This document shows, in pieces, positions 16,330 through 44,825 of a DNA stretch of 64,000 nt (its first letter is position 1; each line of letters opens with the position of its first letter). Under the pieces are notes generated by a model. The model did not search any database. It was not told where the DNA came from and saw only the letters and a program-made list of their open reading frames with translations. Origin of the DNA: Streptomyces tsukubensis (GTDB lineage: Bacteria > Actinomycetota > Actinomycetes > Streptomycetales > Streptomycetaceae); contig NZ_CP020700.1 of NCBI RefSeq assembly GCF_003932715.1, positions 868,001-932,000 on the forward strand, in the 5' to 3' direction. Both the position numbers and the translations under genes were made by a program.

Positions 16330-16372
16330 CCCCGGGGCCGCGGCGGCAGGTCAGCGCGCGGCGGCCCCGGGG
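16330..16372. terminator. Inverted repeat between convergent genes
   Basis: A 12-nt arm CCCCGGGGCCGC at 16330-16341 is perfectly complementary to GCGGCCCCGGGG at 16361-16372. It falls at the convergent ends of the permease gene and the NTF2-like gene and overlaps the last codons of the latter. It could terminate both. Confidence 0.6.
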
Positions 16373-16677
16373 GCGGCGTACCGGCGTCGGCTGCGGAGCA
16401 TGCCCTCGTCGGAGAGGGTGAACACATCGACGAAGTCGACCTGCTGGGGGCTGACCCGGCCGATCGCGACCACGCAGTCGCCGGAGGCCACGATGCGGTC
16501 GATGTCGTGGCGGCAGCCCAGCGCCGGTGCCTCGGGGCGGGCGTCCTCGTCGAGCAGGGAGAGATAGCCGTCCACGTCACCGCTGTCGAGATAGTGGTAG
16601 GCCAGCCGCACATGGTCGACCCCGGAGTCGGTGATCAGGCGGCTCGGCAGCAGCTTCCTCGGGTGGCGACTGTTCAT
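16351..16677 (-). CDS. SnoaL/NTF2-like small protein
   Basis: A 108-residue cytosolic protein of the NTF2/SnoaL-like fold, recognised from HVRLAYHYLDSGDVDGYLSL near the N-terminus and DFVDVFTLSDEGMLRSRRRY near the end. Members bind small ligands or act as cyclases and isomerases; no catalytic residue set can be assigned here. I chose ATG 16677 because AAAGGACG lies just upstream. Two G(C)GATAG heptamers lie 77-94 bp upstream on its strand, the same motif found before the NNPWD peptide gene and the XRE gene, so it may be co-regulated with them. Confidence 0.75.
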   Translation of the reverse strand: MNSRHPRKLLPSRLITDSGVDHVRLAYHYLDSGDVDGYLSLLDEDARPEAPALGCRHDIDRIVASGDCVVAIGRVSPQQVDFVDVFTLSDEGMLRSRRRYAAPGAAAR

Positions 16678-16753
16678 GGCACGTCCTTTCCTACGACCGC
16701 CCCGCGGACGGGCGGAAGCTGCTACCACCGTGCCCCGGCGGCGTAACCCCCGC

Positions 16754-16771
16754 CTATCGCGCCCCTATCGC
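16754..16771. promoter_or_regulatory. Tandem CTATCGC heptamers, 11-bp spacing (candidate operator)
   Basis: CTATCGC occurs at 16754-16760 and 16765-16771, exactly 11 bp apart, in the gap between the NTF2-like gene and the SARP gene. Direct heptamers one helical turn apart are the classical layout of SARP binding sites. Read toward the NTF2-like gene the units are GCGATAG, the same orientation relative to transcription as the copies upstream of the peptide and XRE genes. Binding is an inference. Confidence 0.5.
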
Positions 16772-16893
16772 CACCATGGAATCTGCACACCGTTTACAAC
16801 AGTGGAGATGATCGGGAAAACTGTCCGCACACGTCTTGCGCGTCGGTTCGGCACGGATCTGTTGGTCGGACGTGTTCCTTGCTGGGAGAGACT

Positions 16894-19800
16894 GTGGACT
16901 TATCGCCCGGCGAGGCTCGTCGGACCCCTGACAGCGTGGTCTTCCGCATCCTCGGACCGCTCCATGTGCAGGGTCCGGACGGTCAGGTGCGGATTCCGCC
17001 CGGGCGTCAGGAGGTGATCCTCGCCGCGCTGCTGCTGGAGGCGAACCGTGTCGTCAGCACCGACTATCTGGTGGATCTGATCTGGGAGGACGAACCCCCG
17101 GACACCGCCAGGACCCAGGTGCAGATCTGTGTGTCACGGCTGCGGAAGCTGTTCGCCGGGCGGTCGGTCGCCGCGGCCATCACGACCCGGCCGCCCGGCT
17201 ACGTCCTCACGACGGAGGACGGCTCGGTCGATGCGGCGCTGTTCGCCCGGTGGATCGGTGATGCCCGGCTGGTCGGAAAGCGGACCGGGGGCGCGGCCGA
17301 CGCGGTGGAGCTGCTGCGGTCGGCGGGCGGGCTGTGGCAGGGGAACTGTCTCAGCGGCCTGGCCAGCGAGAAGCTGCGCAGCAAGGCCCGCCAGTTGGAC
17401 GAGGAGCGGCTGACGGCGGCCGAGCACCGGATCGACCTGGAGCTGGAGCTGGGCCGGCACCACCAGCTGGTGGGAGAGATCCAGCTGCTGGTGCACGAGC
17501 ATCCGCTGCGGGAGCAGCTGCGCGGGAAGCTGATGCTGGCGCTGTACCGGTCGGGGCGGCAGGCCGAGGCCCTGGACGTCTACCGGCTCGGCCGGGAACT
17601 GCTGGTGGAGGAGCTGGGTCTGGAGCCCGGCGGTGAGCTGCGGAGCCTGAATTCGGCGATCCTCGCCGGGGAGGTGCCGCCGCCGCGGCTGGCCGGACCG
17701 CAGCCGGACGGACGGGCCCGGCAGCCCGGGACCGCGGGTCCGGGGGCGGCGGAAGCGGGCGACGGCGCGGAATCGCCGCAGGTGTTACCGGGTTCGGCGG
17801 ACCTTCCGGCCGTCCGGGAGCCGGCCGAGGCGGAGGCGGCCGGCGGACCGCGGACGGCGGAAGCCGGGCCCCGCCCTGCCGCGGCCGATCCCGCCGGGGC
17901 CCCCGGGCCCGCGGCCGAGGTACCGCGCCAGCTTCCCTCCGACACCGCGGACTTCACCGGTCACGGCGCCCGGATCGCGGATATCGAGCGGACCCTGCTG
18001 GGCCCGCGCGAGCGGCGGGCCGTGGGCCTCGTCGTGATCGTCGGCAAACCGGGTACGGGAAAGTCGACACTGGCCACCCATATCGCGCACCGGGTGGGCG
18101 AAACGCACTTCGCCGACGGTCAGCTCTACTGCGATCTGCGCGGTACGAGCGGCGCCCCGGCGACCGCCGGGGAGGTCCTGGGCCGGTTTCTGCGCGCCCT
18201 CGGCATCCCCGGGCCCGTCATTCCCGAATCCCCCGACGAGCGCGCCGAGATGTACCGGACCCTGCTCGGGTCCCGGCGGGTCCTGGTGGTGCTGGACGAC
18301 GCCGCGTCCGAAAGCCAGGTCCGGGCGCTGCTGCCGGGCGCCGGGAGCTGTGCGGTGCTGGTGACCAGCCGGGTGCGGATGACGGGGCTGCCGGGGGCGC
18401 ACCGGGTGGAGCTGGATGTGCTGGAGACCGAGGAGGCGCTGGAGCTGCTGGTCCGGGTGATCGGCGAGGAGCGGGTGGCGGGTGAGGAGGTCGCGGCGCA
18501 GGCGCTGATCCGGACCGTCGGCGGGCTGCCGCTGGCACTGCGGATCGTGGCCGCCCGGCTGGCGGCCCGCCCGCACTGGACGCTGGCGTCGATGGTGCAC
18601 CGGCTGGCGAACGAGCGGCACAAGCTGGACGAACTCACGCACGGCGAGATGACGATGCGGGCGAGCCTGTCGCTGACGCACGACGGGCTGGGGCCCGGGG
18701 ACCGGCAACTGCTGCGGCTGCTGAGCCTGGCGCAGGGGCCGAGCCTGCCCGGCTGGCTCGCCGGGGCGCTGCTCGACGACCGCCGTCCCTTCCCTTCCGA
18801 TCTGCTGGAACCGCTGGTCGACGTGCAGATGCTGGATGTGGTCGGGATGGAGTCGACGGGCGGCTTCCGCTACCGCTTCCACGAGATCATCCGGGTGTTC
18901 GCCCGGGAGCAGCTGGCCGCGCACGACGATCAGGCGACCCGGTCGGCGGCGCTGGACCGGATGCTCGGCTGCTGGATGGCGCTGGCCGAGGAGGCCCACC
19001 GCCGGGTCTACGGCGGTGACTTCACCGTGCTGCACGGATCGGCGCCCCGCTGGCTGCCGCCCGCCGCCCATGTGGACGAGCTGCTCGCCGATCCGATGGA
19101 GTGGCTGGACAGCGAGCACGCCAATCTGGTGCAGGCGGTGGAGCACGCGGCGGCCGAGCAGCTCGACGAGGTGTGCTGGGATCTGACGACGACGCTGGTC
19201 ACGCTCTTCGAGACCCGCGGCTATCTGGACCACTGGGAGCGTACGCACCAGCTGGCGCTGCGGACGGCGCGGTCGGCGGGCAACCAGCGGGGCAGTGCGG
19301 CCGTACTGGCGTCGCTCGGTTCGCTCTATCTCAGCCGCAGCCAGTACGAGGAGTCGCGGACCGCGCTGACGACGGCACTCGGGTTGTTCACCGAGATGGA
19401 GGACCGGCAGGGGCTCGGTCTCTGCCATCGCGATCTGGCCCTGGTGGAACGGTTCCTCGGGCATGAGTACGAGGCCCTGGAGCTGTACGACCGGGCGCTG
19501 CGCGATTTCGACGCGTCGGGCGATGTGGTGGGGCGGGCCATCGTGCTGACACAGAGCGCGCAGATCTGGATGCTGCGGGGGCAGAGCGCGACCGCGCAGA
19601 GCAGGCTGGACGAGGCGCTGGGCATCTACCGGCTGGTCGGCTACACCGGGGGCCAGGCACGGGCGCTGCGGCGGGCCGGTCAGCTACGGCAGCAGCAGGG
19701 TGAACTGGGGGCTGCGGTGGCGACGTTCACCGAGGTCCTGGAGCTGTGCCGGGACAGTGGGGACGTGATCGGGGAGGGCCATCTGCTGCGGGATCTGGGG

Positions 19801-20058
19801 CTGGCGCACGCCAGGATGGGTCAGCACGCGGCGGCGCGGGACTGTCTGGACCTGGCGCTGGGCATCCGGGAGCGGATCATGGATCACGGCGGGGCGGCGC
19901 TCGTACGGCTGGACCTGGCGAAGCTGCTCGCTTCGGACGGCGGGCCAGGTGACCGGGACCGCTCGCGGGATTTGCTGCGGAGCGCGGTGCGGGCCTTCAG
20001 GGACCGCCGGATGGAGCCGGAACTCGCGGAGGCGCAGAAGCTGCTGGCGGGTGGCTGA
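16894..20058 (+). CDS. SARP-family regulator with NB-ARC and TPR domains (AfsR-like), TTA-containing
   Basis: About 1054 residues. N-terminal winged-helix DNA-binding domain (FRILGPLHVQGPDG), bacterial transcriptional activation domain (about 105-250), a Pro/Ala-rich linker, NB-ARC ATPase with P-loop VGKPGTGKST near 384 and LVVLDDA Walker B, then TPR repeats to the C-terminus. This is the large AfsR type, which activates antibiotic or sigma-like targets. The start is uncertain: I prefer GTG 16894 (GGGAGAG just upstream) to TTG 16879. Two leucine TTA codons are present, at 16900-16902 (if the start is right) and 17785-17787 (in any case), so translation should need the bldA tRNA. TPR domains can bind peptides, and the next gene (convergent) encodes a small secreted peptide. 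Confidence 0.92.
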   Translation: MDLSPGEARRTPDSVVFRILGPLHVQGPDGQVRIPPGRQEVILAALLLEANRVVSTDYLVDLIWEDEPPDTARTQVQICVSRLRKLFAGRSVAAAITTRPPGYVLTTEDGSVDAALFARWIGDARLVGKRTGGAADAVELLRSAGGLWQGNCLSGLASEKLRSKARQLDEERLTAAEHRIDLELELGRHHQLVGEIQLLVHEHPLREQLRGKLMLALYRSGRQAEALDVYRLGRELLVEELGLEPGGELRSLNSAILAGEVPPPRLAGPQPDGRARQPGTAGPGAAEAGDGAESPQVLPGSADLPAVREPAEAEAAGGPRTAEAGPRPAAADPAGAPGPAAEVPRQLPSDTADFTGHGARIADIERTLLGPRERRAVGLVVIVGKPGTGKSTLATHIAHRVGETHFADGQLYCDLRGTSGAPATAGEVLGRFLRALGIPGPVIPESPDERAEMYRTLLGSRRVLVVLDDAASESQVRALLPGAGSCAVLVTSRVRMTGLPGAHRVELDVLETEEALELLVRVIGEERVAGEEVAAQALIRTVGGLPLALRIVAARLAARPHWTLASMVHRLANERHKLDELTHGEMTMRASLSLTHDGLGPGDRQLLRLLSLAQGPSLPGWLAGALLDDRRPFPSDLLEPLVDVQMLDVVGMESTGGFRYRFHEIIRVFAREQLAAHDDQATRSAALDRMLGCWMALAEEAHRRVYGGDFTVLHGSAPRWLPPAAHVDELLADPMEWLDSEHANLVQAVEHAAAEQLDEVCWDLTTTLVTLFETRGYLDHWERTHQLALRTARSAGNQRGSAAVLASLGSLYLSRSQYEESRTALTTALGLFTEMEDRQGLGLCHRDLALVERFLGHEYEALELYDRALRDFDASGDVVGRAIVLTQSAQIWMLRGQSATAQSRLDEALGIYRLVGYTGGQARALRRAGQLRQQQGELGAAVATFTEVLELCRDSGDVIGEGHLLRDLGLAHARMGQHAAARDCLDLALGIRERIMDHGGAALVRLDLAKLLASDGGPGDRDRSRDLLRSAVRAFRDRRMEPELAEAQKLLAGG

Positions 20059-20075
20059 GCGGAGCCGGTTCGGGA

Positions 20076-20200
20076 TTCAGTCCCAGGGGTCGTTCACGGC
20101 GATCCTTCCCGAGGTCGTGGGCGTGCGGGGCGGTGGTGTCCGCGGCGGGCGTTCAGTCCCAGGGATCGTTCACGGCGATCAGTCCCAGGGGTTGTTGATG
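20076..20200. repeat. Triplicated NxPWD-stop cassette at the 3' end of the peptide gene
   Basis: A 29-bp unit, beginning TTCAGTCCCAGGG and ending CACGGCGATC on the plus strand, occurs at 20076-20104 and 20152-20180 with one mismatch. The 3' end of the secreted-peptide gene (20179-20200) is a partial third copy. On the minus strand each copy ends a reading frame: the peptide gene as NNPWD-stop, the other two as IAVNDPWD-stop. Each extra copy contains a GTG-initiated micro-frame (20077-20097 and 20153-20173) encoding only V/M-NDPWD. The distal one has AAGGA five bases before the GTG. The coding pattern is preserved although flanks differ. Whether the copies are expressed is unknown. Confidence 0.75.
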
Positions 20201-20376
20201 TGGGAGGGCGTGGGGGTCGGCGTGGGCGCCGGGACCGGTCCGGCCTCCTGCACCGAGGCGGAGACGGCGCCCGCCGGGGCCCCTTCACCGGCCAGGGCCG
20301 CCTGGGTGCCGAGGAAGGCGGCGCCGGCGAGGGCGGCGGTGACGGCCGCGGTGCGCAGGGCGTGGGCGAGAGCCAT
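20179..20376 (-). CDS. Small secreted peptide precursor ending in NNPWD
   Basis: A 65-residue protein with a clear Sec-type signal peptide: polar start MALAHALRT, hydrophobic core AAVTAALAGAAFLG, and an AxA cleavage site (ALA) near residue 29. The mature part of about 36 residues is Ala/Pro/Thr-rich (PVPAPTPTPTPSH) and ends NNPWD. The 5' side has GGGAACAGGTC before the ATG. It lies tail-to-tail with the SARP-TPR regulator and head-to-head with the XRE regulator. G(T/C)GATAG repeats occur about 104-140 bp upstream. I do not recognise a characterised family. A C-terminal signalling peptide read by a TPR regulator is the most attractive reading, but it is inference. Confidence 0.7.
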   Translation of the reverse strand: MALAHALRTAAVTAALAGAAFLGTQAALAGEGAPAGAVSASVQEAGPVPAPTPTPTPSHINNPWD

Positions 20377-20479
20377 GACCTGTTCCCTTCTGTCGGGGTG
20401 TTCCCGCTGGTGGCGGGGCGTTTCCTGCTGATGGACACCACGTTAGGAAGAGGGGGAATCGCCGGACCGGCCGTGCTCC

Positions 20480-20516
20480 TATCGCCCGGCTATCACGGGC
20501 GAGGGGGGCTATCACC
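20480..20516 (-). promoter_or_regulatory. Three CTATC(G/A)C heptamers upstream of the peptide gene
   Basis: CTATCGC at 20480-20486, CTATCAC at 20491-20497 (11 bp apart) and CTATCAC at 20510-20516 (19 bp further). Read toward the peptide gene they are GYGATAG, matching the copies before the XRE and NTF2-like genes. The spacing is SARP-like. Candidate activator sites for the peptide promoter. Confidence 0.5.
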
Positions 20517-20643
20517 GCCCGGGTCCCGGGCGGGAATCGCCTCGGTCCCGTGGGCACCGGCCGGCCCGTGCGCCCCACCGTCACCAGGAGTACGGGCCGT
20601 TGGCCGGGCCGGGGTACGGCTCGGGCCGGGTGGCCCCGCCGGG

Positions 20644-20716
20644 GTGATAGCGGGCCGGGGCCCCTGCGGCCGCGGTCCCTGGCGGGCTGGGCGGCGACGG
20701 GATGGTGGCGCGATAG
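20644..20716 (+). promoter_or_regulatory. Two G(T/C)GATAG heptamers upstream of the XRE gene
   Basis: GTGATAG at 20644-20650 and GCGATAG at 20710-20716, 66 bp (six helical turns) apart, the nearer one 53 bp before the ATG of the XRE gene. Same motif and same orientation relative to transcription as in front of the peptide gene. Confidence 0.45.
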
Positions 20717-20768
20717 CGGGGTGCCGACGATGGGACGTGTCCCTCCCCACCCCGTACAGGGAGCGCCC

Positions 20769-22151
20769 ATGAACCCCGCACCGTTCGCAGAGACCGTCAC
20801 GGATTCACAGGTCGGAGCCCTGATCCGGGCCCATCGGCTGCGTATCGGACTGACCCAGCGCGAGCTGGCCGACCTGTCCACGATCAGCGTGCGGGCGATC
20901 CGCGATCTGGAGCACGGCCGGGCCACCCGCCCCCGTACCGACACGGTGCGGCTGATGGCGGACGCCCTGCGGCTGGGGCCCCGGGCCAGAGCCGCGCTGG
21001 AGGAGGCCGCGCGGCCGGGCCGCGCGGGCAGAGCCCCGGCGGGGCCCCCGGCCCCGCCGGACGCCCCGAAGCCGCTGGTGGGAAGGGAAACGGAGACCGA
21101 CACCCTGGTACGGGAGCTGGCCCCGGACGGCGGGGAGCGCCTGGTGCATGTGGTGGGCCTGCCCGGGGTCGGCAAGACCCGGGTGGCGCTGGCCGCGGCG
21201 GCGGCACTGCACGGCTCCGGGATGCCGGTGCTGTGGCATGCCTTCGAGGGCGCGGCCCACGACTACGTACCGACGGCCGGGGGGCCGTGGCGGGAGCTGA
21301 CGGAGCGTCTGGTGTCGGGGCTGTACGCGTCCGGGTTACCGCACCGGGAGCCCGCGGGCGGGGAGTCGGCGAGCGCACTGCTGGGCGAGGGTCCGGTGCT
21401 GCTGGTGCTCGACGGCGCCCCGGCGCGGGCCCCGGGCGCGGACCGGCTGACCCGGCTGCTGCACGAGGTGCCGGGGCTGCGGCTGCTGGTGACCTCCGAC
21501 GAACCGTGGCAGGCCCCCGGTGAACGGCTCTTCCTGCTCTGCCCGCTGCCCGTGCCGTCCGGTGGGGGTGCGCGGGGTGCGGCGGACGGACCGCAGCAGG
21601 CGGGCGACGAACGCGAGCCCGCGGTGCGGATGTTCCTCGACCAGGTGCGGCGGGTGCTGGCGGCTCCGGCGGTCACGGCCGCGGACCGGGAGCGGGCGGT
21701 ACGGATCTGCCGGCTTCTCGACGGCCATCCGGGGGCGCTGTCGGCCGCCGCGTCCTGGCTGGTGGTCTCCGATCTGGCGGCGCTCTGCGACACGCTGGCG
21801 GTGGATCCGGCGGCGTTCCTCGACCATCTCGGCGGCCGGGACGACCGGCTCCGGGACTCCCTGTACGGGCGGATCGGCCGACTGCCCGCGGGGCCGCGCG
21901 CCGTACTCGACGCACTGTGCGCCGCGCCCGGGCCGGACTCCGCCGCCGAGGGCTTCGGTCTGCCCGCGCTCACCGAGCTGACCGGCGGCAGTCTGCCCGC
22001 ATGCGGGCGGCTGCTGCGGGAGCTGCTGCTGTCGGGGCTGGTCCGGGCGGCCCATGAGGAGGGCCCGGCCCGCTTCCGGGTGCCCGCGCTGGTACGGGCC
22101 CTGGTGAGCGGGGCTCCGGTGGGCGCGCCGCAGGCAACTGCCGCCGTCTGA
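20769..22151 (+). CDS. XRE-family regulator with NB-ARC ATPase domain, TTA-containing
   Basis: A 460-residue regulator. Residues 14-75 form a Cro/CI helix-turn-helix (ALIRAHRLRIGLTQRELADLS, then SVRAIRDLEHGRA). An Ala/Pro linker leads to an NB-ARC-like STAND ATPase with P-loop VGLPGVGKTR near 133-142 and LLVLDGA near 207-213. Unlike many relatives it has no C-terminal TPR array and ends after the NB-ARC winged-helix part. ATG 20769 has AGGGAG six bases upstream and is inside a longer frame. A TTA leucine codon at 21336-21338 predicts bldA control. It sits just before the NRPS operon and shares promoter heptamers with the peptide gene, so a pathway-specific regulator role is likely. Confidence 0.88.
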   Translation: MNPAPFAETVTDSQVGALIRAHRLRIGLTQRELADLSTISVRAIRDLEHGRATRPRTDTVRLMADALRLGPRARAALEEAARPGRAGRAPAGPPAPPDAPKPLVGRETETDTLVRELAPDGGERLVHVVGLPGVGKTRVALAAAAALHGSGMPVLWHAFEGAAHDYVPTAGGPWRELTERLVSGLYASGLPHREPAGGESASALLGEGPVLLVLDGAPARAPGADRLTRLLHEVPGLRLLVTSDEPWQAPGERLFLLCPLPVPSGGGARGAADGPQQAGDEREPAVRMFLDQVRRVLAAPAVTAADRERAVRICRLLDGHPGALSAAASWLVVSDLAALCDTLAVDPAAFLDHLGGRDDRLRDSLYGRIGRLPAGPRAVLDALCAAPGPDSAAEGFGLPALTELTGGSLPACGRLLRELLLSGLVRAAHEEGPARFRVPALVRALVSGAPVGAPQATAAV

Positions 22152-22387: not shown

Positions 22388-25300
22388 ATGTCCCCCAAGG
22401 CATCCGTCAGGCTGCCGCTGTCGGCGGCACAGCGCGAGATCTGGCTGGCCCACACGCTGGATCCGTCCGGCCGCAGCTACAACTTCGGCGAGTACCGGGA
22501 GCTGCGCGGCCGGGTCGATCCGGAGCTGGTCCGGGCCGCGTTCCGGCAGCTCGCCGTGGAGACCGACGCGATGCGGATCCGGGGTGTCGGCGCGGACGGC
22601 GACGGCCCCTGGCAGACCCTGCACGCCGACCCGGGCGACCAGGAGCCGGCACTGGTGGACCTCAGCGGCGCCGAGGACCCGGCCGCCGCGGCCCGCGACT
22701 GGATGGCAGCCGAGCTCGCCCGCCCGTTCGATCTGGCGGCGGACTGGCTGACCCGGCACGCCCTGGTGAAGGCCGGTGAGGAGCTGTGGTTCTCCTTCCT
22801 CGGTGTCCACCATCTGGTCAACGACGGCGCCGGGCAGTCCCTGCTGGGCGCCCGGCTGGTGGAGCTGTACGAGGACGCGGCGGCCGGGGAGCCGTGGCGT
22901 CCGTCGCCGTTCGGTTCGCTGGCGGAGCTGCTCGCCGAGGAGACCGGGTACCTGGAGTCGCCGCAGGCGGCGGAGGACCGGGCGTACTGGGTCGCGAAGA
23001 CGGCGGACCCGCCGCCGGCCGCGCGGATCGCCGGGGGGCGCTCGGCGCCCGTACCGCCCGGTTCGCTGCCGTTCGTACGGCGTACGGTGACCCTCCCCGC
23101 GACGTACACCCGGCAGTTGCGGGAGGTGGCCCGCGCGCACGGGGCACCGTGGACGAGGGCGGTGATCGCCCTGGTCGCCGCCTATGTCCACCAGGCCTCC
23201 GGAACGGACGCCGAGGAGCTGACGCTGGCGCTGCCGGTACGGGCGCGGATCGGGGAGAGGGCCCGCAGCACCCCGGCGATGATGTCGAACATCATTCCGC
23301 TGCGGCTGCCGGTGCCCGCGGGCGGCACCCTGGCGGGGCTGCTGGGGGCGGTGGTGACGGAGGTCCGGCAGGGGTTGCGGCGGCAGCGGACCCGGTTCGA
23401 GGAGTTCGGCCCGGAGGGCGCGCCCGGGCGGCCGCCGGTCTCGCTGCAGCTGAACATCATGGCGTTCGCACCGGGCATGAGGTTCTTCGGTGTGCCGGCC
23501 ACCCAGCACAACCTCAGTAACGGGCCGGTGGACGGGCTGGCGGTCGCGGTCTACGACCTGGGGCCGGAGGACGGGCTGCGGATCGACTTCGACGCGGCGC
23601 CGGAGTCCTGCGATACGGCCGCCGTCGCCGCGCACCAGGACCGTTTCGTACGGTTCGTGGGCACCGCCCTCGCCGCGCCCGAGGAGCCGCTGTCCGCGCT
23701 GGAGCTGATGGACGAGGGCGAGCGGCGGCTCGTGCTGCACGAGTGGACGGGGGTGACGGCTCCGGTCGACGAGCGGCCGCTGACGGAGCGGTTCGAGGAG
23801 CAGGCCCGGATCCGCCCCGACGCGATCGCCGTGGTCTTCGGCGAGGACCATCTCACCTACGGCCGTCTGGACACCGAGGCGAACCGGCTGGCCCACCATC
23901 TGCGGGACACCACCGGACTGGGCCGCGGCGACCTCGCGGGCATCCTCGTCGACCGCTCACTGCCCCTGGCCACCGCCATCCTCGCCGTACTCAAAACCGG
24001 CGCCGCCTACACCCTCCTCGACCCCGACTACCCCGATCTGCGACTCACCGGGATCGCAGCCGACGCCGGGATCGCCGCGCTGGTGACGACGGAGGGGTAC
24101 GCCCACCGGGTGCCGGGGCCCTGGCCGGTGGTACGGGTCGACTCCGAGGCCCCGGCAATCGCGGAGCGGCCGGGCACTCGCCCGGAATCGGTGCTGACGG
24201 GGGACGACTCCGCCTGTGTGATGTTCACTTCGGGGTCGACGGGACGCCCCAAGGGGATCCTCTCCTCCCACCGGAACCTCACCTCCACCGTCACCGGGCA
24301 GACCTACTGCACCTTCGGCCCCGGCGAGACCTTCCTCCAATGCTCACCCGTCTCCTGGGACGCCTTCAGCCTCGAATTCTGGGGCGCCCTCCTCCACGGC
24401 GGCACCACCGTCCTCCAACCAGGACAACGACCCGAACCCGCCCTCATCGCCCACCTCACCCCCCACCACCACATCACCATGCTCCAACTCTCCTCCAGCC
24501 TCTTCAACTACCTCACCGACGAACACCCCACCACCTTCACCACCACCCACACCGTCTACACCGGCGGCGAACCCGCCTCCCCCACCCACATCCACACCCT
24601 CCAACAACACCACCCCCACCTCACCATCACCAACGGCTACGGACCCGCCGAATCCCTCGGCTTCACCACCACCCACACCATCCCCCAACCCACCACCAAC
24701 AACCCCACCACCCAACCCACACCCATCGGCACCCCCCTCACCAACAAACACGCCTACATCCTCGACCACCACCTCCAACCCGTCCCCCCAGGCACCACCG
24801 GCGAGCTCTACCTCACCGGCCACGGCATCGCCCACGGCTACCTCACCCAACCCACCACCACCGCCACCCGCTTCACCCCCAACCCCTACGGACCCCCCGG
24901 CACCCGCCTCTACCGCACCGGCGACCAAGCCCACTGGGACACCCACGGCAACCTCCACTACACCGGCCGCACCGACACCCAAATCAAAATCCGCGGCTTC
25001 CGCATCGAACCCACCGAAATCGAAAACACCCTCACCACCCACCCCCACATCACCCAAGCCACCACCACCCACACCAACAACCAACTCACCGCCCACATCA
25101 CCACCACCCCCAACACCACCACCACACCCCACGACATCCGCACCTACCTCCGCCAACACCTCCCCGACCACCTCATCCCCACCCACATCACCACCCACCA
25201 CCAACTCCCCCTCACCCCCAACGGCAAAATCGACAAACGCGCACTGTCCCGGTTCGCCGCTCCCCCGGCCGAGGAGGGCGGACGGACGGCCGGCACTCCG

Positions 25301-28300
25301 CTGGAGGAGATCGTCTGCGCCCTCTTCGCGGAGGTGCTGGACCTCGCGGAACCGCCGTCCGCGGAAGCCGACTTCTTCACCCTCGGCGGCCACTCCCTGC
25401 TCGCCGCCAAGCTCGCCAACCGGCTCTCGTCGGCGCTGGACGCCCCGCTGGGCCTGCCCGACGTCTTCCGCCGGCCCACCCCGGCCCGGCTCGCCGAACA
25501 GCTTGCGGAGCTGACCGGACGGGGCGCCGCACCGGCGCCGCCCGCGGTCGCAGGACCGCGGCCCGAGCGGCTTCCGCTGTCCTTCGCCCAGCAACGGCTA
25601 TGGCTGGTGAACGGGCTCGAAGCCGGGGGGACGGCCTACAACGTCCCCCTGTCGGTCCGGCTGGAAGGGCCGCTGGACCCGGCCGCGCTACGGGCCGCCG
25701 TCCGCGATGTGATGGAGCGTCATGAACCGTTGCGGACCCGGATCACCGTCCTGGACGGCGAACCCTGCCAGCTGGTGGACCCGGTGGGAGCGGCACCCTT
25801 CGAGGTCCGCGATATCGCCCCGGATGCGGTGGAGCCGGAGCTGACGGCCGCCGCCGGACATGTCTTCGACCTCGCGGCGGAGGCCCCGCTGCGGGTGACG
25901 CTGCTGCGCACCGGCCCGGAGTCGGCCGTGCTGCTGGTGCTGCTGCACCACATCGCCACGGACGGGCAGTCGCTGGGCCCGCTGTTCGCGGACCTCTCAG
26001 CGGCGTACGCGGCCCGGCTCGCCGGACGGAGCCCCGACCCGGCGCCGATTCCCCTCGCCTACGCCGATCATGCGCTGTGGCAGCGGTCCGCACTGACCGG
26101 TCCGGTGCTGGACGGGCAGCTCGCGTACTGGCGGCGGGCCCTCGCGGAGCTGCCGCAGGAACTGGGCCTGGTGCACGACCGGCCCCGGCCGCCGGCCGCC
26201 GGGGGGCGCGGCGGTGCCGTGGCGGTGGACTTCGGCGCGGACCTCGGCCGCCGGATCTCCGGGCTGGCCCGCGCCGAACGGTGCACGCCCTTCATGGTGG
26301 TGCAGGCGGCGCTGGCCGCCACCCTGACCCGGCTGGGCGCGGGCACCGATATTCCGCTGGGCTCCCCCGTGGCGGGCCGTGCGCACACCGGCCTTGCGGG
26401 GCTGGTGGGGTTCTTCGTCAATACGCTGGTGCTGCGGACGGACACCTCCGGCGATCCGGAGTTCCGGGCGCTGCTGCGCCGGGTCCGCGATACGGACCTG
26501 GACGCCTTCGCGCATCAGGACGCCCCGTTCGACCTCGTCCTGGAGGCCGTCAATCCGCAGCGGTCACTGGCCCGGCATCCGCTGTTCCAGGTCTGTCTGG
26601 CGGTGGAGAACGGTCCGGCGCCGACGCCCGACTTCCCCGGGGTACGGAGCGGACCGGTCGTGCCGGTGGCGACCGGGGCGGTCAAGTTCGACCTGGAGTT
26701 CCTGCTGCACACCGGCGGTGCCGACGGCGGGCCGGACGGTCTTGCGGGCACCGTGCTGTACAGCCACGACGTCTTCGAGCGGGCATCCGTCGAGCGGATC
26801 ACCGGAATGCTGCGGCGGACGCTGGAGCAGGCCGTCGAAGCGCCGGAGCTGCGGCTGTCCCGGCTGGACCCGATGTCCGCGCGGGACCGGCACCGGGTGC
26901 TGCACGAGTGGACGGGGGTGACGGCTCCGGTCGACGAGCGGCCGCTGACCGAACGGTTCGAGGAGCAGGCCCGGATCCGCCCCGACGCGATCGCCGTGGT
27001 CTTCGGCGAGGACCATCTCACCTACGGCCGTCTGGACACCGAGGCGAACCGGCTGGCCCACCATCTGCGGGACACCACCGGACTGGGCCGCGGCGACCTC
27101 GCGGGCATCCTCGTCGACCGCTCACTCCCCCTCGCCACCGCCATCCTCGCCGTACTCAAAACCGGCGCCGCCTACACCCTCCTCGACCCCGACTACCCCG
27201 ATCTACGACTCACCCGGACCGGGACCGACGCAGGCATCACGGCCCTTCTGACCGCCGGGGAACAGTGCGGCAGACTCACCGGGCCGTGGCCCGAGGTCCC
27301 CTTCGACCGCCTCCAGCTGCCGGAACTGCCCGACAACGCGCCGGGCATCGCCATCGGCCCCGAGGATCCCGCCTGTGTGATGTTCACTTCGGGGTCGACG
27401 GGACGCCCCAAGGGGATCCTCTCCTCCCACCGGAACCTCACCTCCACCGTCACCGGGCAGACCTACTGCACCTTCGGCCCCGGCGAGACCTTCCTCCAAT
27501 GCTCACCCGTCTCCTGGGACGCCTTCAGCCTCGAATTCTGGGGCGCCCTCCTCCACGGCGGCACCACCGTCCTCCAACCAGGACAACGACCCGAACCCGC
27601 CCTCATCGCCCACCTCACCCCCCACCACCACATCACCATGCTCCAACTCTCCTCCAGCCTCTTCAACTACCTCACCGACGAACACCCCACCACCTTCACC
27701 ACCACCCACACCGTCTACACCGGCGGCGAACCCGCCTCCCCCACCCACATCCACACCCTCCAACAACACCACCCCCACCTCACCATCACCAACGGCTACG
27801 GACCCGCCGAATCCCTCGGCTTCACCACCACCCACACCATCCCCCAACCCACCACCAACAACCCCACCACCCAACCCACACCCATCGGCACCCCCCTCAC
27901 CAACAAACACGCCTACATCCTCGACCACCACCTCCAACCCGTCCCCCCAGGCACCACCGGCGAGCTCTACCTCACCGGCCACGGCATCGCCCACGGCTAC
28001 CTCACCCAACCCACCACCACCGCCACCCGCTTCACCCCCAACCCCTACGGACCCCCCGGCACCCGCCTCTACCGCACCGGCGACCAAGCCCACTGGGACA
28101 CCCACGGCAACCTCCACTACACCGGCCGCACCGACACCCAAATCAAAATCCGCGGCTTCCGCATCGAACCCACCGAAATCGAAAACACCCTCACCACCCA
28201 CCCCCACATCACCCAAGCCACCACCACCCACACCAACAACCAACTCACCGCCCACATCACCACCACCCCCAACACCACCACCACACCCCACGACATCCGC

Positions 28301-28759
28301 ACCTACCTCCGCCAACACCTCCCCGACCACCTCATCCCCACCCACATCACCACCCACCACCAACTCCCCCTCACCCCCAACGGCAAAATCGACAAACGCG
28401 CACTGTCCCGGTTCGCCGCTCCCCCGGCCGAGGAGGGCGGACGGACGGCCGGCACTCCGCTGGAGGAGATCGTCTGCGCCCTCTTCGCGGAGGTGCTGGA
28501 CCTCGCGGAACCGCCGTCCGCGGAAGCCGACTTCTTCACCCTCGGCGGCCACTCCCTGCTCGCCGCCAAGCTCGCCAACCGCCTCGGCCGCGCCCTGGAG
28601 CTGAAACTCACCCTCCGGGACGTGTTCCGGCACCCCACGCCCGCCCGGCTGGCCACGCATATCGAAACCCGCCCGGCCGACACCACGACCGCCCCCGAAC
28701 CGCGCCGCGCCAGGCCCGTCCTGCGCCGCCGCACCGACCAGGAACGGATCACCTCATGA
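22388..28759 (+). CDS. Non-ribosomal peptide synthetase, two modules (C-A-T-C-A-T)
   Basis: A 2123-residue synthetase. Order: C (about 8-445, HHLVNDG at 141), A (449-955), T (GGHS, Ser about 1003), C (1060-1500, HHIATDG), A (1504-2010), T (Ser about 2056). It adds two residues; neither module has an epimerase. The upstream C may accept a starter from another carrier protein. The two A domains are identical from before the [11 protein letters not shown] motif to the carrier domain, so they should select the same amino acid. My reading of the specificity code is D-A-L-Q-Y-G-G-G-F-K, which I cannot match to a substrate. ATG 22388 has AGGAG 7 nt upstream. The gene overlaps the thioesterase ATG by 4 bp. 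Confidence 0.95.
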   Translation: MSPKASVRLPLSAAQREIWLAHTLDPSGRSYNFGEYRELRGRVDPELVRAAFRQLAVETDAMRIRGVGADGDGPWQTLHADPGDQEPALVDLSGAEDPAAAARDWMAAELARPFDLAADWLTRHALVKAGEELWFSFLGVHHLVNDGAGQSLLGARLVELYEDAAAGEPWRPSPFGSLAELLAEETGYLESPQAAEDRAYWVAKTADPPPAARIAGGRSAPVPPGSLPFVRRTVTLPATYTRQLREVARAHGAPWTRAVIALVAAYVHQASGTDAEELTLALPVRARIGERARSTPAMMSNIIPLRLPVPAGGTLAGLLGAVVTEVRQGLRRQRTRFEEFGPEGAPGRPPVSLQLNIMAFAPGMRFFGVPATQHNLSNGPVDGLAVAVYDLGPEDGLRIDFDAAPESCDTAAVAAHQDRFVRFVGTALAAPEEPLSALELMDEGERRLVLHEWTGVTAPVDERPLTERFEEQARIRPDAIAVVFGEDHLTYGRLDTEANRLAHHLRDTTGLGRGDLAGILVDRSLPLATAILAVLKTGAAYTLLDPDYPDLRLTGIAADAGIAALVTTEGYAHRVPGPWPVVRVDSEAPAIAERPGTRPESVLTGDDSACVMFTSGSTGRPKGILSSHRNLTSTVTGQTYCTFGPGETFLQCSPVSWDAFSLEFWGALLHGGTTVLQPGQRPEPALIAHLTPHHHITMLQLSSSLFNYLTDEHPTTFTTTHTVYTGGEPASPTHIHTLQQHHPHLTITNGYGPAESLGFTTTHTIPQPTTNNPTTQPTPIGTPLTNKHAYILDHHLQPVPPGTTGELYLTGHGIAHGYLTQPTTTATRFTPNPYGPPGTRLYRTGDQAHWDTHGNLHYTGRTDTQIKIRGFRIEPTEIENTLTTHPHITQATTTHTNNQLTAHITTTPNTTTTPHDIRTYLRQHLPDHLIPTHITTHHQLPLTPNGKIDKRALSRFAAPPAEEGGRTAGTPLEEIVCALFAEVLDLAEPPSAEADFFTLGGHSLLAAKLANRLSSALDAPLGLPDVFRRPTPARLAEQLAELTGRGAAPAPPAVAGPRPERLPLSFAQQRLWLVNGLEAGGTAYNVPLSVRLEGPLDPAALRAAVRDVMERHEPLRTRITVLDGEPCQLVDPVGAAPFEVRDIAPDAVEPELTAAAGHVFDLAAEAPLRVTLLRTGPESAVLLVLLHHIATDGQSLGPLFADLSAAYAARLAGRSPDPAPIPLAYADHALWQRSALTGPVLDGQLAYWRRALAELPQELGLVHDRPRPPAAGGRGGAVAVDFGADLGRRISGLARAERCTPFMVVQAALAATLTRLGAGTDIPLGSPVAGRAHTGLAGLVGFFVNTLVLRTDTSGDPEFRALLRRVRDTDLDAFAHQDAPFDLVLEAVNPQRSLARHPLFQVCLAVENGPAPTPDFPGVRSGPVVPVATGAVKFDLEFLLHTGGADGGPDGLAGTVLYSHDVFERASVERITGMLRRTLEQAVEAPELRLSRLDPMSARDRHRVLHEWTGVTAPVDERPLTERFEEQARIRPDAIAVVFGEDHLTYGRLDTEANRLAHHLRDTTGLGRGDLAGILVDRSLPLATAILAVLKTGAAYTLLDPDYPDLRLTRTGTDAGITALLTAGEQCGRLTGPWPEVPFDRLQLPELPDNAPGIAIGPEDPACVMFTSGSTGRPKGILSSHRNLTSTVTGQTYCTFGPGETFLQCSPVSWDAFSLEFWGALLHGGTTVLQPGQRPEPALIAHLTPHHHITMLQLSSSLFNYLTDEHPTTFTTTHTVYTGGEPASPTHIHTLQQHHPHLTITNGYGPAESLGFTTTHTIPQPTTNNPTTQPTPIGTPLTNKHAYILDHHLQPVPPGTTGELYLTGHGIAHGYLTQPTTTATRFTPNPYGPPGTRLYRTGDQAHWDTHGNLHYTGRTDTQIKIRGFRIEPTEIENTLTTHPHITQATTTHTNNQLTAHITTTPNTTTTPHDIRTYLRQHLPDHLIPTHITTHHQLPLTPNGKIDKRALSRFAAPPAEEGGRTAGTPLEEIVCALFAEVLDLAEPPSAEADFFTLGGHSLLAAKLANRLGRALELKLTLRDVFRHPTPARLATHIETRPADTTTAPEPRRARPVLRRRTDQERITS
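24212..25422 (+). repeat. 1.2-kb A-domain core, copy 1, with atypical codon use
   Basis: This 1211-bp block in module 1 appears base-for-base identical to 27371-28581 (offset 3159). From about 24310 to 25240 the coding style differs from the surroundings: CAA, GAA and AAA replace CAG, GAG and AAG, CCA and GGA are frequent, and long CCACCACC-like runs occur. A second block just upstream (23732-24049 versus 26897-27214) is about 98% identical, and the roughly 160 bp between the blocks are not conserved. This fits recent gene conversion or duplication of an A-domain core of foreign codon style. Confidence 0.9.
27371..28581 (+). repeat. 1.2-kb A-domain core, copy 2
   Basis: Second copy of the A-domain core in NRPS1 module 2. 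The identity runs from just before the A3 motif to the middle of the carrier domain and stops abruptly there: copy 1 continues CGGCTCTCGT, copy 2 CGCCTCGGCC. The sharp borders inside domains fit recombination and not duplication of a whole module. Confidence 0.9.
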
Positions 28760-29553: not shown

Positions 29554-29613
29554 CCACCCCCGGCGCCGTACCCCTCAACCCCGCCCCACCTACCGATGCA
29601 GAGGACTGTTCCG

Positions 29614-30648
29614 ATGACGACCTTCGCCGACGCCCCCGTCCTGGGCGGACTGAACGTGATCCGCGAGCCGGGCAGGCCCGCCGTCGTGATCACCCCCGGC
29701 CACGGCTCCGCCGAGGCCGCCGCCGCCTGGCTGACCGAGCACCGGGCCGCCGTCCAGGCCGAGCTGCACCGCTCCGGCGCGGTGCTGCTGCGCGGGCTGC
29801 CCATCCATGACGCGGCCTCCTTCGCCACCGCCCGCGACGCACTCGTCGAACAGCGCGCCGGATACAAGGAGAAGGCGACCCCGCGCACCGACTTCGGCGA
29901 GGGGGTGTTCTCCTCCACCGATCTCCCGGCCGCCCAGCCGATCAGACTGCACAACGAGAACAGCTACACCCTGGACTTCCCGGGGGTGCTGCTCTTCGGC
30001 TGCATCACCGCCCCCGAGGAGGGCGGGGCCACCACCGTCGGAGATATGCGGGAGGCGCTGAGACTGCTCCCGGACGGGCTGCGGGCCAGGTTCGAGGAGG
30101 CCGGCTGGCTGCTCGTGCGGAACTACTCCGAACTGGCCGGCCTGCCCTGGTACACGACCTTCGCGACGGAGGACCGGGCGGTCGCGGAGGCCTACTGCGA
30201 CGAGAACACCATCGGGTACGAGTGGCTCGACGACGACTCCCTGATCACCCGGCAGCGCCGCTCGGCGGTGATCACGCACCCGGTGACCGGGGAGCGGGTC
30301 TGGTTCAACCACTTCGCGTTCTGGAACAGCCGCACCCTCGACCCGGACGTCCGCGAGGTGCTGGAGGAGACGTACGGCCCGGACGGACTCCCCTTCAACA
30401 CCTATCTGGGCGACGGAACCCGGCTCACGGACGCCGAGGTCGACGCCGTCAACGAGGTCTACGACCGGGTCACGGTCCGCGAGAGCTGGCAGCGGGGCGA
30501 TCTGATGCTGGTGGACAACATCCTCTGCGCCCACGGGCGGGAGGCCTTCACCGGCGACCGGAAGATCCTCGTCGCCATGGGCGAACCGGTCGCGCTCGCC
30601 GACTGCTCCCCCGCCACCCAGCCGTCCACCACCGTCCACGGGGAGTGA
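29614..30648 (+). CDS. SyrP-like Fe(II)/2-oxoglutarate-dependent hydroxylase
   Basis: A 344-residue non-heme iron dioxygenase of the TauD/SyrP type. The iron ligands are seen as HNE (His about 113, Glu 115, in RLHNENSYTLDFPG) and a distal His (about 307, in NILCAHGREAF), and Arg in RKILVAMGEP would bind 2-oxoglutarate. SyrP-type enzymes beta-hydroxylate amino acids, usually Asp/Asn/Gln-like, while they sit on an NRPS carrier. ATG 29614 is preferred over ATG 29596 because AGAGGAC lies 7 nt upstream. The next gene encodes a free-standing A-T protein, a plausible carrier for its substrate. Confidence 0.88.
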   Translation: MTTFADAPVLGGLNVIREPGRPAVVITPGHGSAEAAAAWLTEHRAAVQAELHRSGAVLLRGLPIHDAASFATARDALVEQRAGYKEKATPRTDFGEGVFSSTDLPAAQPIRLHNENSYTLDFPGVLLFGCITAPEEGGATTVGDMREALRLLPDGLRARFEEAGWLLVRNYSELAGLPWYTTFATEDRAVAEAYCDENTIGYEWLDDDSLITRQRRSAVITHPVTGERVWFNHFAFWNSRTLDPDVREVLEETYGPDGLPFNTYLGDGTRLTDAEVDAVNEVYDRVTVRESWQRGDLMLVDNILCAHGREAFTGDRKILVAMGEPVALADCSPATQPSTTVHGE

Positions 30649-30656
30649 GCACCGCC

Positions 30657-32468
30657 ATGACCGCAGTCCTGCCCGAGCGCACCCGCCCCCTCGCCGCCCC
30701 TGCACCGCACGATCTGCTGGAGCGGCTCGCCGCCGCCCCCGGCGGCCGTACCGCCGTGATCGCCGCCGACCACGAGCTGACCTTCGACGAACTCCGCACC
30801 GGCGCCATGCGGATCGCGGCCGGGCTCGCCGCCCACGGCGTGGGCCCCGAATCCGTCGTCGCGCTCTGCCTGCCGCGCGGCGCGGCGCTGGTCACCGCAC
30901 TGATCGGCACCCTCACCGCGGGCGCCGCCTATCTCCCCGTGGACCCGAAGCTGCCCGCCGAACGGCGCCGCTATCTGGTGACGGACTCCGGCGCCGACGC
31001 CGTGATCACCCTCGACGGCGGACCGGACGGCGCGCTCCCGGCCGGGGTGCCCCGGCTCGGCCTCGCGGAACTGCTCTCCGGAGACGCCCCCGGCCCCGGC
31101 TACCGGCCGGTCCCGGTGACCGCGGACACCCTCGCGTACGTCATCTACACCTCGGGCTCGACGGGCCGCCCCAAGGGCGTCGAAATCGCCCGGGGCGCGG
31201 CGGCCCGGCTGCTCACCGAGCTGGAGGACACGGGGATCGCGACGGGCGACGGCGCCCGGGTGGGCTGGAACGCCTCCCCGTCCTTCGACGCCTCCGTACA
31301 GCAGTGGGTCCGGGTCTGCCGCGGCGACACCCTCGTCATGGTCGACGACGAGACCCGCGCCGACCCCGCACTGCTCGCCGCGTTCACCGACGAGCAGTCC
31401 CTCACCGATCTCGACCTCACTCCCTCGCACGCCGAACCGCTGCTGGACCTGCTCTCCGCCGACGGCGGGCCGCGTCCGCTGACCCTGCTGATCGGCGGCG
31501 AGGCGATCGGCCCCGCCCTCTGGTCCCGGATCGCGGAGCTGACCGCGGCGGGCACGGTCCGTGCCGTCAATCTGTACGGCCCCACCGAGTGCACCGTGGA
31601 CGCCACCGCCGGGTGGATCGAACCCGCCGGGCGGACCCCGCACATCGGCGGTGTGCTGCCCGGGCTGCGGATGCGGGTGCTGGACGAGAAGCTGGCGCCC
31701 GTCGGCACCGAAGGGACCGGCGAACTGTATCTGGCCGGGCCCCGGGTGGGCCGCGGCTACCGCAACCGGCCCGGTCTCACCGCCGAACGGTTCACCGCCG
31801 ACACCGGTCCCGACGCCGAACCCGGCGGGCGGATGTACCGCACCGGAGATCTGGTACGACTCCTCCCCGACGGCCGGCTCGACTGTCTCGGCCGGGCCGA
31901 CGGCCAGGTGAAGCTGCGGGGCTTCCGGATCGAACTCCCCGAGATCGAAGCCGCCATGACCGCCCACGGCTCCGTCACCGAGGCCGTCGCCGTCCTCCGG
32001 GACGACGTCCACGGCGCTCCCGGCATCGTCGGCTACTACCGGGCCGCGGCACCGGTCACCGAGACGGCACTCACGGAGCTGCTGGCGGCTTCGCTGCCCG
32101 CGTACATGGTGCCCTCCGTGCTGGTCGCCGTGGACCGCTTCCCGACCACCGTCAACGGCAAGCTGGACCGGGCCGCGCTGCCCGCACCACCGTCAGGCGC
32201 CCCGGCCCCGGCCGTCGCGGACAGCGGTCTCTCGGCCTCGGAGCGGCTGATCGGGGACGTGTGGACGACCGTCCTGCGGGCGTCGTCCGTCGGCCCCGAC
32301 GACAACTTCTTCAAGCTGGGCGGCCATTCGCTGCTGGCCATCAAGCTGGTGTCGCGGGTCCGGTCCGAGCTGGGCGTGGCCCTGCCGGTGAAGGCCGTCT
32401 ACGCCCATCCGCGGCTGCGGGACCTCGCCGCGCACATCGACGGGCTCGTCGCAGCCCAGGACGGATGA
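30657..32468 (+). CDS. Free-standing NRPS adenylation-carrier protein (A-T), Gln-like code
   Basis: A 603-residue didomain. The A domain (about 20-520) shows [33 protein letters not shown] and NGKLDRAAL, and a T domain follows (GGHSLLAI, Ser about 558). There is no condensation domain. My alignment to the GrsA positions gives D-A-Q-D-L-G-L-V-D-K, one residue from the glutamine code. It could load its own T for hydroxylation by the upstream SyrP-like enzyme, or charge the A-less modules that follow. ATG 30657 is used; GTG 30645, overlapping the hydroxylase stop, is an alternative start. Confidence 0.9.
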
Positions 32469-32478
32469 GGACACTTCC

Positions 32479-43915: not shown

Positions 43916-44127
43916 CGAACTCCACCAACCCTTTCGACGACCCCGACGGCATCTTCCACGTGGTGGTCAACGACGAGGGGCAGCACGCCCTGTGGCCGGT
44001 CTTCGCGGACATCCCCGCAGGCTGGGAGGGGGTTTGGGGGCCGGGCCCGAGGGCCGGTGCGCTGGAGTACGTGGAGGCCAACTGGACCGACATCCGGCCG
44101 AAGAGCCTGCTCGCCCAGTACGCCTGA
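43912..44127 (+). CDS. MbtH-like NRPS accessory protein
   Basis: A 71-residue protein of the MbtH family, which binds A domains and aids their folding and activity. The signature is complete: [20 protein letters not shown] and WTDIRPKSL, including the three conserved tryptophans. The ATG overlaps the NRPS3 stop by 4 bp (ATGA). It closes the assembly-line operon; a strong hairpin follows. Confidence 0.97.
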
Positions 44128-44160
44128 CCGGGCTCCGCCCTCCCTTTCCCGAAGACCGCC

Positions 44161-44193
44161 GGCCGCGGTCCGGACACACTCCGGACCGCGGCC
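44161..44193. terminator. Strong perfect hairpin after the MbtH gene
   Basis: Perfect 14-bp stem (GGCCGCGGTCCGGA and its complement at 44180-44193) with loop CACAC, 34 bp after the MbtH stop. It should end the NRPS operon and separate it from the glutamate mutase operon, which starts about 170 bp later. Confidence 0.88.
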
Positions 44194-44360
44194 CTTCCGT
44201 ATGACCCGGGGAAGGCAACCCGATATTCCGGGCGACCTCTCCGCTCTCTCCGCGACCTCGCCGACCCGATTCGGCGCCCTCTTTCTGTTTCCACTTTCTG
44301 CGCCGATTCTGCCGCCTGCAACTTCCCCTTCCCGAACCGTATCGTCCCTATATTTTCGGC

Positions 44361-44825
44361 ATGCGACGACGGAGTTTGACGATACTGCTGACCGGTACCG
44401 CATCGGATTCCCACACCTGGAATCTGGTCTACCTCCGGCTCTTCCTGGAGGAGCGCGGCCACCGGGTGAGGTGCCTGGGGCCCTGTGTCCCCGACGAACT
44501 GCTGGTGGCGGCGTGCACGGAGTCGGCGCCCGAGCTGGTCGTCATCAGCAGCGTCAACGGTCACGGCTACCGCGACGGGCTCTCCGCCGTCCGGTCCCTG
44601 CGCTCCGCCGGGCTGGGCCTGCCGGTCGTCGTCGGCGGCAAGCTCGGTGTCGCGGGACGGACCGATCCGGCCCAGCGGGCCCTGCTGCTGGAGGCGGGCT
44701 GCGACGCGGTCTTCGACGACGGGGACGTCGAGGCGCTGCGGGTGTTCGCGGCGGATCTGGCCTCGGCCGTCCGGCCGCCCGTACCGGCGCTTCCCCGGAT
44801 CGTGGTTCCCCGGGCCGTGGCATGA
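44361..44825 (+). CDS. Glutamate mutase, cobalamin-binding (sigma) subunit
   Basis: A 154-residue B12-binding protein. The DxH cobalamin motif is seen as SDSHTWN near residues 15-21, followed by SSVNGHGYRDG and VVVGGKLG, the segments that line the corrin nucleotide tail. With the large subunit encoded next (4-bp overlap) it should convert L-glutamate to (2S,3S)-3-methylaspartate. Placement inside the peptide cluster suggests that product, or a derivative, is a building block. The last 30 residues are Pro/Val-rich and variable. The ATG at 44361 is the first plausible start; a strong RBS is not obvious. Confidence 0.92.
   Translation: MRRRSLTILLTGTASDSHTWNLVYLRLFLEERGHRVRCLGPCVPDELLVAACTESAPELVVISSVNGHGYRDGLSAVRSLRSAGLGLPVVVGGKLGVAGRTDPAQRALLLEAGCDAVFDDGDVEALRVFAADLASAVRPPVPALPRIVVPRAVA

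Follow-up and report, generated by a model that had tools for sequence, protein, structure and literature searches.

A small-peptide gene beside a large SARP regulator of Streptomyces tsukubensis as a candidate peptide-autoinducer system of actinomycetes

Whether a small peptide encoded between two regulatory genes of Streptomyces tsukubensis is a signal, and which of the two regulators would receive it, is the question raised by a locus in a 64,000-nucleotide stretch of contig NZ_CP020700.1 (positions 868,001 to 932,000, or C1:868001-932000 of the 8.02-Mb genome G000; hereafter the window). The gene order there is a SnoaL-like gene (-), a large Streptomyces antibiotic regulatory protein (SARP) with NB-ARC and tetratricopeptide repeat (TPR) domains (+), a gene for a 65-residue precursor (-), an XRE-NTPase regulator (+) and then nonribosomal peptide synthetase (NRPS) genes. 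The best-known actinomycete autoregulators are gamma-butyrolactone-type molecules. We consider it probable that the small gene encodes an autoinducing peptide that is sensed by the TPR domain of the SARP and that gates the adjacent cluster.

Pairing of the small gene with a large SARP

Inspection by eye of the precursor gene shows a Shine-Dalgarno site; its product, MALAHALRTAAVTAALAGAAFLGTQAALAGEG...SHINNPWD, has a hydrophobic segment and an ALA site and ends in NNPWD (coordinates of the features are collected in Table 1). A first-pass annotation of this DNA had described the motif as repeated in the adjoining DNA, and this is so: three 18-bp copies (20179-20196, 20153-20170 and 20077-20094) each give N[ND]PWD-stop in minus-strand translation, the second and third being NDPWD-stop, each after a GTG, at 26 and 102 bp past the NNPWD-stop of the precursor. 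The pattern has no further match in the whole genome, and the reversed control had none. In a relative, G094 (G and L numbers are our handles for genomes and loci), the three copies, both GTG codons and the first spacing of 26 bp are kept, the second spacing being 91 bp versus 76 bp in the window.

The N[ND]PWD-stop pattern was searched without reference to neighbouring genes in 392 genomes of the genus and matched 23 of them (G000 included), versus three for the reversed pattern. The matches are true ends of open reading frames (ORFs) in 22 of the 23; that of G206 (L014) is false, its last codon being TGG. A SARP orthologue adjoins the peptide in all 22 true genomes (21/21 fetched contexts outside G000), and an XRE gene is present in 20 of the 21 fetched contexts. 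The exception, G195 (L045/L093), retains the SARP beside a degenerate LNDPWD ORF with no leader and no adjacent XRE, and is a module in decay. SARP frames are broken in G224 and G375, whose assemblies are listed as 88% and 55% complete, respectively. Across the 21 contexts and the window, the recurrent genes by a simple gene caller were the SARP (22/22), XRE (19), NRPS (19) and SnoaL-like (14) genes, with the next family at six. The NRPS genes of these contexts are 49-93% identical to that of the window over stretches of at least 1000 residues, and among 14 genomes with up to 40 kb of context TauD was found in 13, the glutamate mutase in seven and the AsnA-like gene in six; given this shared TauD, NRPS and neighbour content, most N[ND]PWD contexts can be assigned to variants of a single cluster family. 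A second pattern, repeated DTPW, was likewise sought without the SARP and matched 6/295 genus genomes (reversed control 3/295). In all four genomes with a real DTPW precursor it faces a SARP of 46-49% identity; the matches in G196 and G129 are spurious, with neither precursor nor SARP. The XRE matched 26 records of a plasmid collection, none over more than 80% of its length.

Since a profile scan of genome contigs with the peptide alignment gave no confirmed match, the SARP alignment was taken for the contig scan, with the words DGQLYCDL and ERAEMYRT required and the best 80 of 125 relatives kept. At least 11 of the 21 peptide-first contexts recur among these 80 loci, and the two sets are not independent. 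By taxonomy the loci fall into five families, Streptomycetaceae, Micromonosporaceae, Pseudonocardiaceae, Nocardiopsidaceae and Thermomonosporaceae. An ORF with the terminal motif lies within 1 kb of the SARP end on the convergent strand at 66/80 loci and on the other strand at 0/80, whereas the 1030 control windows of 1 kb taken from these loci included four with such an ORF on the minus strand and 11 with one on the plus strand. Reading of the 14 misses by eye added L078, L081 (cut by a contig end), L118, L132, L139, L140 and L141, bringing to 73/80 the loci with a convergent small ORF that has a PW- or NW-type core. These 73 include the degenerate L093, the SGNWPK (NW-type) ORFs of three Nocardiopsis loci and the short forms L094, L103, L122 and L125; at L103 the NDPWG ORF was counted, the scripted pick having been a different one.

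Conservation of the association in other genomes, on which the first-pass annotation had staked its proposal, was found, as the SARP-peptide pair spans five actinomycete families. That annotation had left the partner as one or both regulators: the SARP is the constant one, and the XRE is adjacent at 54/80 SARP loci and 53/73 peptide loci, leaving 20/73 (one of them the contig-cut L081) at which the peptide still lies beside the SARP. Its NRPS neighbour holds for 60/80 loci, with relatives downstream at 140 bits or more, and not for 12/80 at which at least 9 kb were examined and none reached that cut-off. Ten of these 12 carry the peptide; therefore, the output is not always an NRPS. The other SARP-family loci of the S. 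tsukubensis genome (13 of 18 matches examined) lend no support to the idea of such a peptide beside every large SARP: no PW-core ORF end was found in the 1.5-kb flanks of 11 of the 13, L145 and L150 had only chance-looking tails and no leader, and no PW-core ORF was found in the 1.5-kb flanks of the AfsR orthologue.

Precursors, promoters and the modelled candidate receptor

A signal-like start, as defined by a simple rule and with no dedicated predictor, is present in 66/73 precursors; the first-pass description of a secreted peptide with a cleavable signal would fit these, and some other forms are short and leaderless. Leaders diverge and the spacer between leader and core scarcely aligns, while the core is constant. 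Tandem cores, in 2-11 copies, were found in 14/73 precursors and are of the types NDPWD, TNPWD, SNPWN, DTPWG, DTPWP and SDPWG. TNPWD is present in six copies in Saccharothrix carnea and 11 in Actinosynnema pretiosum, SNPWN in 4-5 in Lentzea, DTPWG in 4-5 in two Saccharothrix and SDPWG in two in Nocardiopsis; three Streptomyces have 2-3 DTPW[P/A]-type cores and two Streptomyces three NDPWD/NNPWD cores (the raw count of 12 at L138 includes one chance NW). Three precursors of the peptide-first set carry 4-6 cores. Core copies are identical in DNA at L065, L096 and L130. At L118, L128, L137 and L138 they differ synonymously with the residues constant, which suggests selection on the peptide.

Ten Lentzea-type proteins in the protein database carry 3-5 core copies, and the named database precursor matches are annotated as hypothetical or uncharacterized protein. 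One 132-residue protein that matches the SNPWN precursor (P0020) comes from a 1.3-kb contig, has Pfam PF07681 as its listed domain and is possibly a fusion or an artefact. At the other extreme, short ORFs with clear Shine-Dalgarno sites adjoin intact SARP ORFs. A leaderless MAIENTPWT (9 residues) is encoded at 12902-12928 of L125 and a leaderless MAIMKSPADELPALNTPWT (19 residues) near 12950 of L122, each with a Shine-Dalgarno site and an intact SARP ORF.

SARP sites are heptameric direct repeats with 4-nt spacers, as described in the available text of PMC10972967, and repeats of this form were found, at the level of sequence only, in the candidate target promoters. The exact box pattern occurs in the 8-Mb genome at operators 1 and 2 only; the reversed pattern occurs once and is an unfair control, because CTATC is its own mirror. 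An imperfect third site with two mismatches faces the XRE, and at two mismatches three matches in the window are near chance (4/100 shuffles reach three), so that the weight of the assignment lies with the two exact sites and their conservation. With at most one mismatch, the box is found on the peptide side at 62/80 loci and upstream of the SARP at 43/75, compared with 3/1030 control windows. The exact box is present in 58/392 genus genomes. All but three (G344, G145 and G354) of the 22 genomes with a true N[ND]PWD are among them, and the 24 matches in these 19 are without exception no more than ~4.1 kb from the peptide. In the four real DTPW genomes, the box is beside the precursor in G265, elsewhere in G100 and absent from G273 and G066. 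The SnoaL-like and peptide genes of the window have the operator type in common, and an identical site, CTATCGCAGGTCTATCGC, is present in several genus genomes without N[ND]PWD (G132, G205, G220, G361 and others). Taken together with their conservation, the operators point to a SARP that would activate the peptide gene.

The last 460 residues of the SARP (18676-20055) gave an AlphaFold model of an arm and a TPR superhelix with a mean pLDDT of 94.5 and a pTM of 0.89, and the predicted TPR domain is confidently modelled. A profile search with the TPR region found AfsR, LGN, kinesin light chains, RapJ (2.7e-10) and Rap105 (3.4e-9). Foldseek placed LGN on top; its other hits include PH0952, a TPR sensor of the STAND class, and KLC2 together with a tryptophan-acidic peptide (PDB 6f9i, rank 47). 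Since LGN ranks top, the RRNPP receptors are not the nearest folds of the modelled domain. A quick maximum-likelihood tree was made from 79 of the 81 SARP C-termini (L093 and L125 had too little sequence and were left out). On it, the core class changes 12 times versus a shuffled mean of 25.5, and 0/200 shuffles were as low. The PWN, PWTS, PWP and NWPK classes change once each, PWG three times, the no-peptide class five times and PWD six times. On these alignments, core type follows SARP clade, a matter of coherence and not of binding. On the helices expected to line the groove, which were picked by helix position in the predicted fold and not by coordinates, every aligned PWD, PWN and PWT/S receptor has R931 and R932, and most have Q935; the DTPWP and NWPK receptors have different residues at all three positions, and the PWG receptors are mixed.

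Proposed mechanism and alternatives

In the mechanism that we propose, the product of the small gene is a precursor from which an autoinducing peptide is derived, and a short [N/D/S/T]xPW[x] core, either at the C-terminus or repeated, would be its active part. The signal peptide would export the precursor, trimming would take place outside the cell, and the core would be re-imported, most likely via a general oligopeptide permease. It would then occupy the TPR groove of the neighbouring SARP and relieve the NB-ARC/TPR autoinhibition, upon which the SARP would act in positive feedback on the peptide and SnoaL-like genes through their direct-repeat operators and would turn on the adjoining biosynthetic cluster, either by itself or via the XRE. 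Processing, import, binding, activation and cluster control are steps that we infer; what is read from the sequences directly is the conserved pairing, the conservation and tandem multiplication of the core, the agreement of core type with SARP clade and the SARP-type repeats in the peptide promoter. Tandem cores and SARP-type boxes in its promoter are what an autoinducing pheromone predicts.

Several observations weigh against this proposal. No such ORF was found at 7/80 SARP loci (L087, L099, L100, L102, L112, L126 and L129), and no signal-like start in 7/73 precursors (L081, which is cut by a contig end, L094, L103, L108, L113, L122 and L125). The terminal-motif rule and the core classes were fixed after inspection of the data. 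Shared inheritance would also lead core types to cluster on the tree and, for this reason, we read the tree as coherence only. A box match is also present in 39/370 genomes without N[ND]PWD. Lastly, an exact-pattern search of the S. tsukubensis genome found no exact box before the NRPS, so the NRPS step may go via the XRE or weaker sites.

Of the other explanations, an intracellular role would account for the forms without a leader. If the core were a co-factor of the SARP within the cell (an autocrine timer or assembly peptide), with no cell-to-cell signalling and with export secondary or lost, one would expect intact SARP ORFs to be accompanied by short forms without a leader, some as small as MAIENTPWT of L125, and the putative VNDPWD micro-ORFs of G094 and the window would fit as well. 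However, the start is signal-like in 66/73 precursors, and a leader followed by tandem cores fits release outside the cell; we regard this explanation as unlikely. We hold it to be improbable that the secreted peptide has a binding, structural or inhibitory function outside the cell and that the SARP only co-regulates it: signal-like leaders and SARP-type promoter boxes would fit, but just ~5 residues are constant, the remainder being diverged or deleted, and core type tracks SARP clade. A precursor of a ribosomally synthesized and post-translationally modified peptide (RiPP), akin to the FxSxx-COOH precursors that accompany NB-ARC-TPR proteins, would likewise be short with a conserved C-terminus, and the SARP C-terminus scores with HaaT (313.8 bits, cut-off 1125) and FxSxx_TPR (70.4 bits, cut-off 300), in both cases below the cut-off. 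Sec-type leaders and tandem cores argue against it, as does the finding that no further gene recurs with the SARP as widely as the XRE, NRPS and SnoaL-like genes, although a maturase was not sought at every locus, and we think a RiPP very improbable. Least credible of all is the XRE-NTPase as the receptor in place of the SARP, since its position divergent from the peptide gene and next to it at 53/73 loci is offset by the 20/73 without an adjacent XRE (one contig-cut) and by the lack of a Pfam TPR in the protein.

Reception by the SARP is thus the reading that we carry forward, and with it, on balance and with less assurance, a wider one. PW-core pheromones may constitute a widespread, undescribed peptide language of actinomycetes and be the missing TPR-sensor inducers of one branch of large SARPs (STAND ATPases), with forms that range from multi-copy precursors to leaderless ones of at most nine codons and with dialects (N[ND]PWD, TNPWD, SNPWN, DTPWG, DTPWP, NTPW[TS] and SGNWPK) matched to receptor clades and gating antibiotic clusters. 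No description of a SARP-peptide system was found in the literature searched, the scope of which left out preprints and most subscription journals. If true, a ribosomal-peptide autoinducer system would be added to the actinomycetes, simple candidate elicitors for silent clusters would be at hand, and the motif and operator signatures could be used to find further such circuits. The NOD and TPR domains of AfsR inhibit its SARP head, ATP relieves this and the inducer is not known, as far as the available text of PMC10936776 goes. For this branch of large SARPs, a candidate ligand of ~5 residues for the sensor domain is encoded beside the proposed receptor, and what that domain detects is now approachable with synthetic peptides.

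The locus and its relation to known systems

ORFs and Pfam confirm the SARP-NB-ARC-TPR, peptide and XRE genes that had been named at first pass. The SARP has the large-SARP architecture of a winged helix and BTAD head, NB-ARC and TPR (BTAD 1.7e-38, NB-ARC 6.4e-16, TPR_12 2.3e-17). Against the AfsR family NF053617 it scores 568.8 bits, below the cut-off of 1430, which another gene of the same genome passes with 1674.8 bits. The XRE matched HTH_3 (1e-8), HTH_31 and AAA_16 (1.3e-8), and no TPR was found in it by Pfam; its former NB-ARC label is withdrawn, as Pfam scores AAA_16 and not PF00931. The SnoaL-like product matched SnoaL_2 narrowly below the cut-off (E 1.9e-5), and a divergent SnoaL-like relative is present at 57/80 SARP loci.

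Table 1. Features of the peptide locus in the window
Feature	Coordinates	Strand	Remarks
SnoaL-like small protein gene	16351..16678	-	divergent from SARP; ATG 16678 by Shine-Dalgarno, by eye; longest ORF 16351-16728
SARP-type operator 1	16754..16771	-	two heptamers, 11-bp period; exact match; faces SnoaL-like gene
Large SARP (SARP head, NB-ARC, arm, TPR)	16894..20058	+	GTG 16894 by Shine-Dalgarno; longest ORF from TTG 16879
TPR superhelix, proposed peptide sensor	19225..20055	+	helix pairs up to C-terminus; AlphaFold model
Possible micro-ORF VNDPWD-stop, copy 3	20077..20097	-	putative; after GGGAAGGA; in G094 too, GTG included
Possible micro-ORF VNDPWD-stop, copy 2	20153..20173	-	putative; weak ribosome site; 26-bp spacing same in G094
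65-residue precursor, signal peptide, C-terminal NNPWD	20179..20376	-	convergent with SARP, divergent from XRE
-10 box TAACGT, inferred peptide promoter	20440..20445	-	conserved across 63 aligned peptide promoters
Proximal third half-site, peptide promoter	20455..20462	-	conserved in promoter alignment
SARP-type operator 2	20479..20496	-	exact match; GTGATAG-N4-GCGATAG; upstream of peptide gene
XRE-NTPase regulator	20769..22151	+	ATG 20769 by Shine-Dalgarno; longest ORF from GTG 20550
First NRPS gene of adjoining cluster	22388..28759	+	2 Condensation, 2 AMP-binding, 2 carrier stretches

Further into the cluster, the NRPS at 32479-37791 has three Condensation and three carrier stretches and no AMP-binding domain by Pfam; adenylation must be supplied from elsewhere. 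Genes for a TauD dioxygenase (29596-30648), a glutamate-mutase E (Met_asp_mut_E, 44057-46207) and an asparagine-synthetase-A-like protein (46239-47237) suggest methylaspartate-type or modified Asp/Asn building blocks. A 392-residue cluster protein (31304-32482) had no Pfam or NCBIfam match.

Among known systems, the RRNPP peptide systems of Firmicutes include Rap-Phr, PlcR-PapR, NprR, Rgg-SHP and AimR. The present module resembles them in the small precursor gene that adjoins a TPR regulator, in a propeptide with predicted export and a short conserved core, in the leaderless short forms (as in SHP peptides) and in having RapJ and Rap105 as profile relatives of the SARP TPR region. It differs in the SARP winged-helix head and NB-ARC ATPase, where RRNPP regulators have an XRE head or are Rap phosphatases, and in its actinomycete hosts, multi-copy alpha-factor-like precursors and convergent gene order. 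In the yeast alpha-factor precursor, a signal peptide precedes several identical cores that variable spacers set apart, and the tandem precursors share this plan of a leader and multiple identical cores; the likeness is one of analogy only, as the receptor type and processing signals are unrelated or unestablished. The TPR domain of kinesin light chain (PDB 6f9i) has a related fold and binds a short peptide in which an acidic residue adjoins a Trp, but it belongs to a eukaryotic cargo adaptor and the likeness is of fold only. FxSxx-COOH/cyclophane RiPP systems share the short precursor with a conserved C-terminus and a related NB-ARC-TPR region; unlike them, the module has a Sec-type leader, a PW core and a SARP head, the window precursor ends in NNPWD with no FxSxx and the TPR score is below the family cut-off. 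No radical SAM maturase was found among the scanned window proteins, a scan that covered part of the neighbours.

Large SARPs such as AfsR, PolY and RslR3 have the same succession of SARP head, NB-ARC and TPR, and their operators are heptameric direct repeats in the available text of PMC10972967. The window SARP departs from AfsR in its family score below the cut-off and in the dedicated peptide gene that adjoins it. The same text cites NosP (Li 2018) as a SARP that responds to peptidyl ligands, which is similar to the ligand derived from a ribosomal peptide that we propose here; in NosP, as far as that text describes it, the ligand comes from the antibiotic precursor itself, whereas in the present module it would come from a separate small gene.

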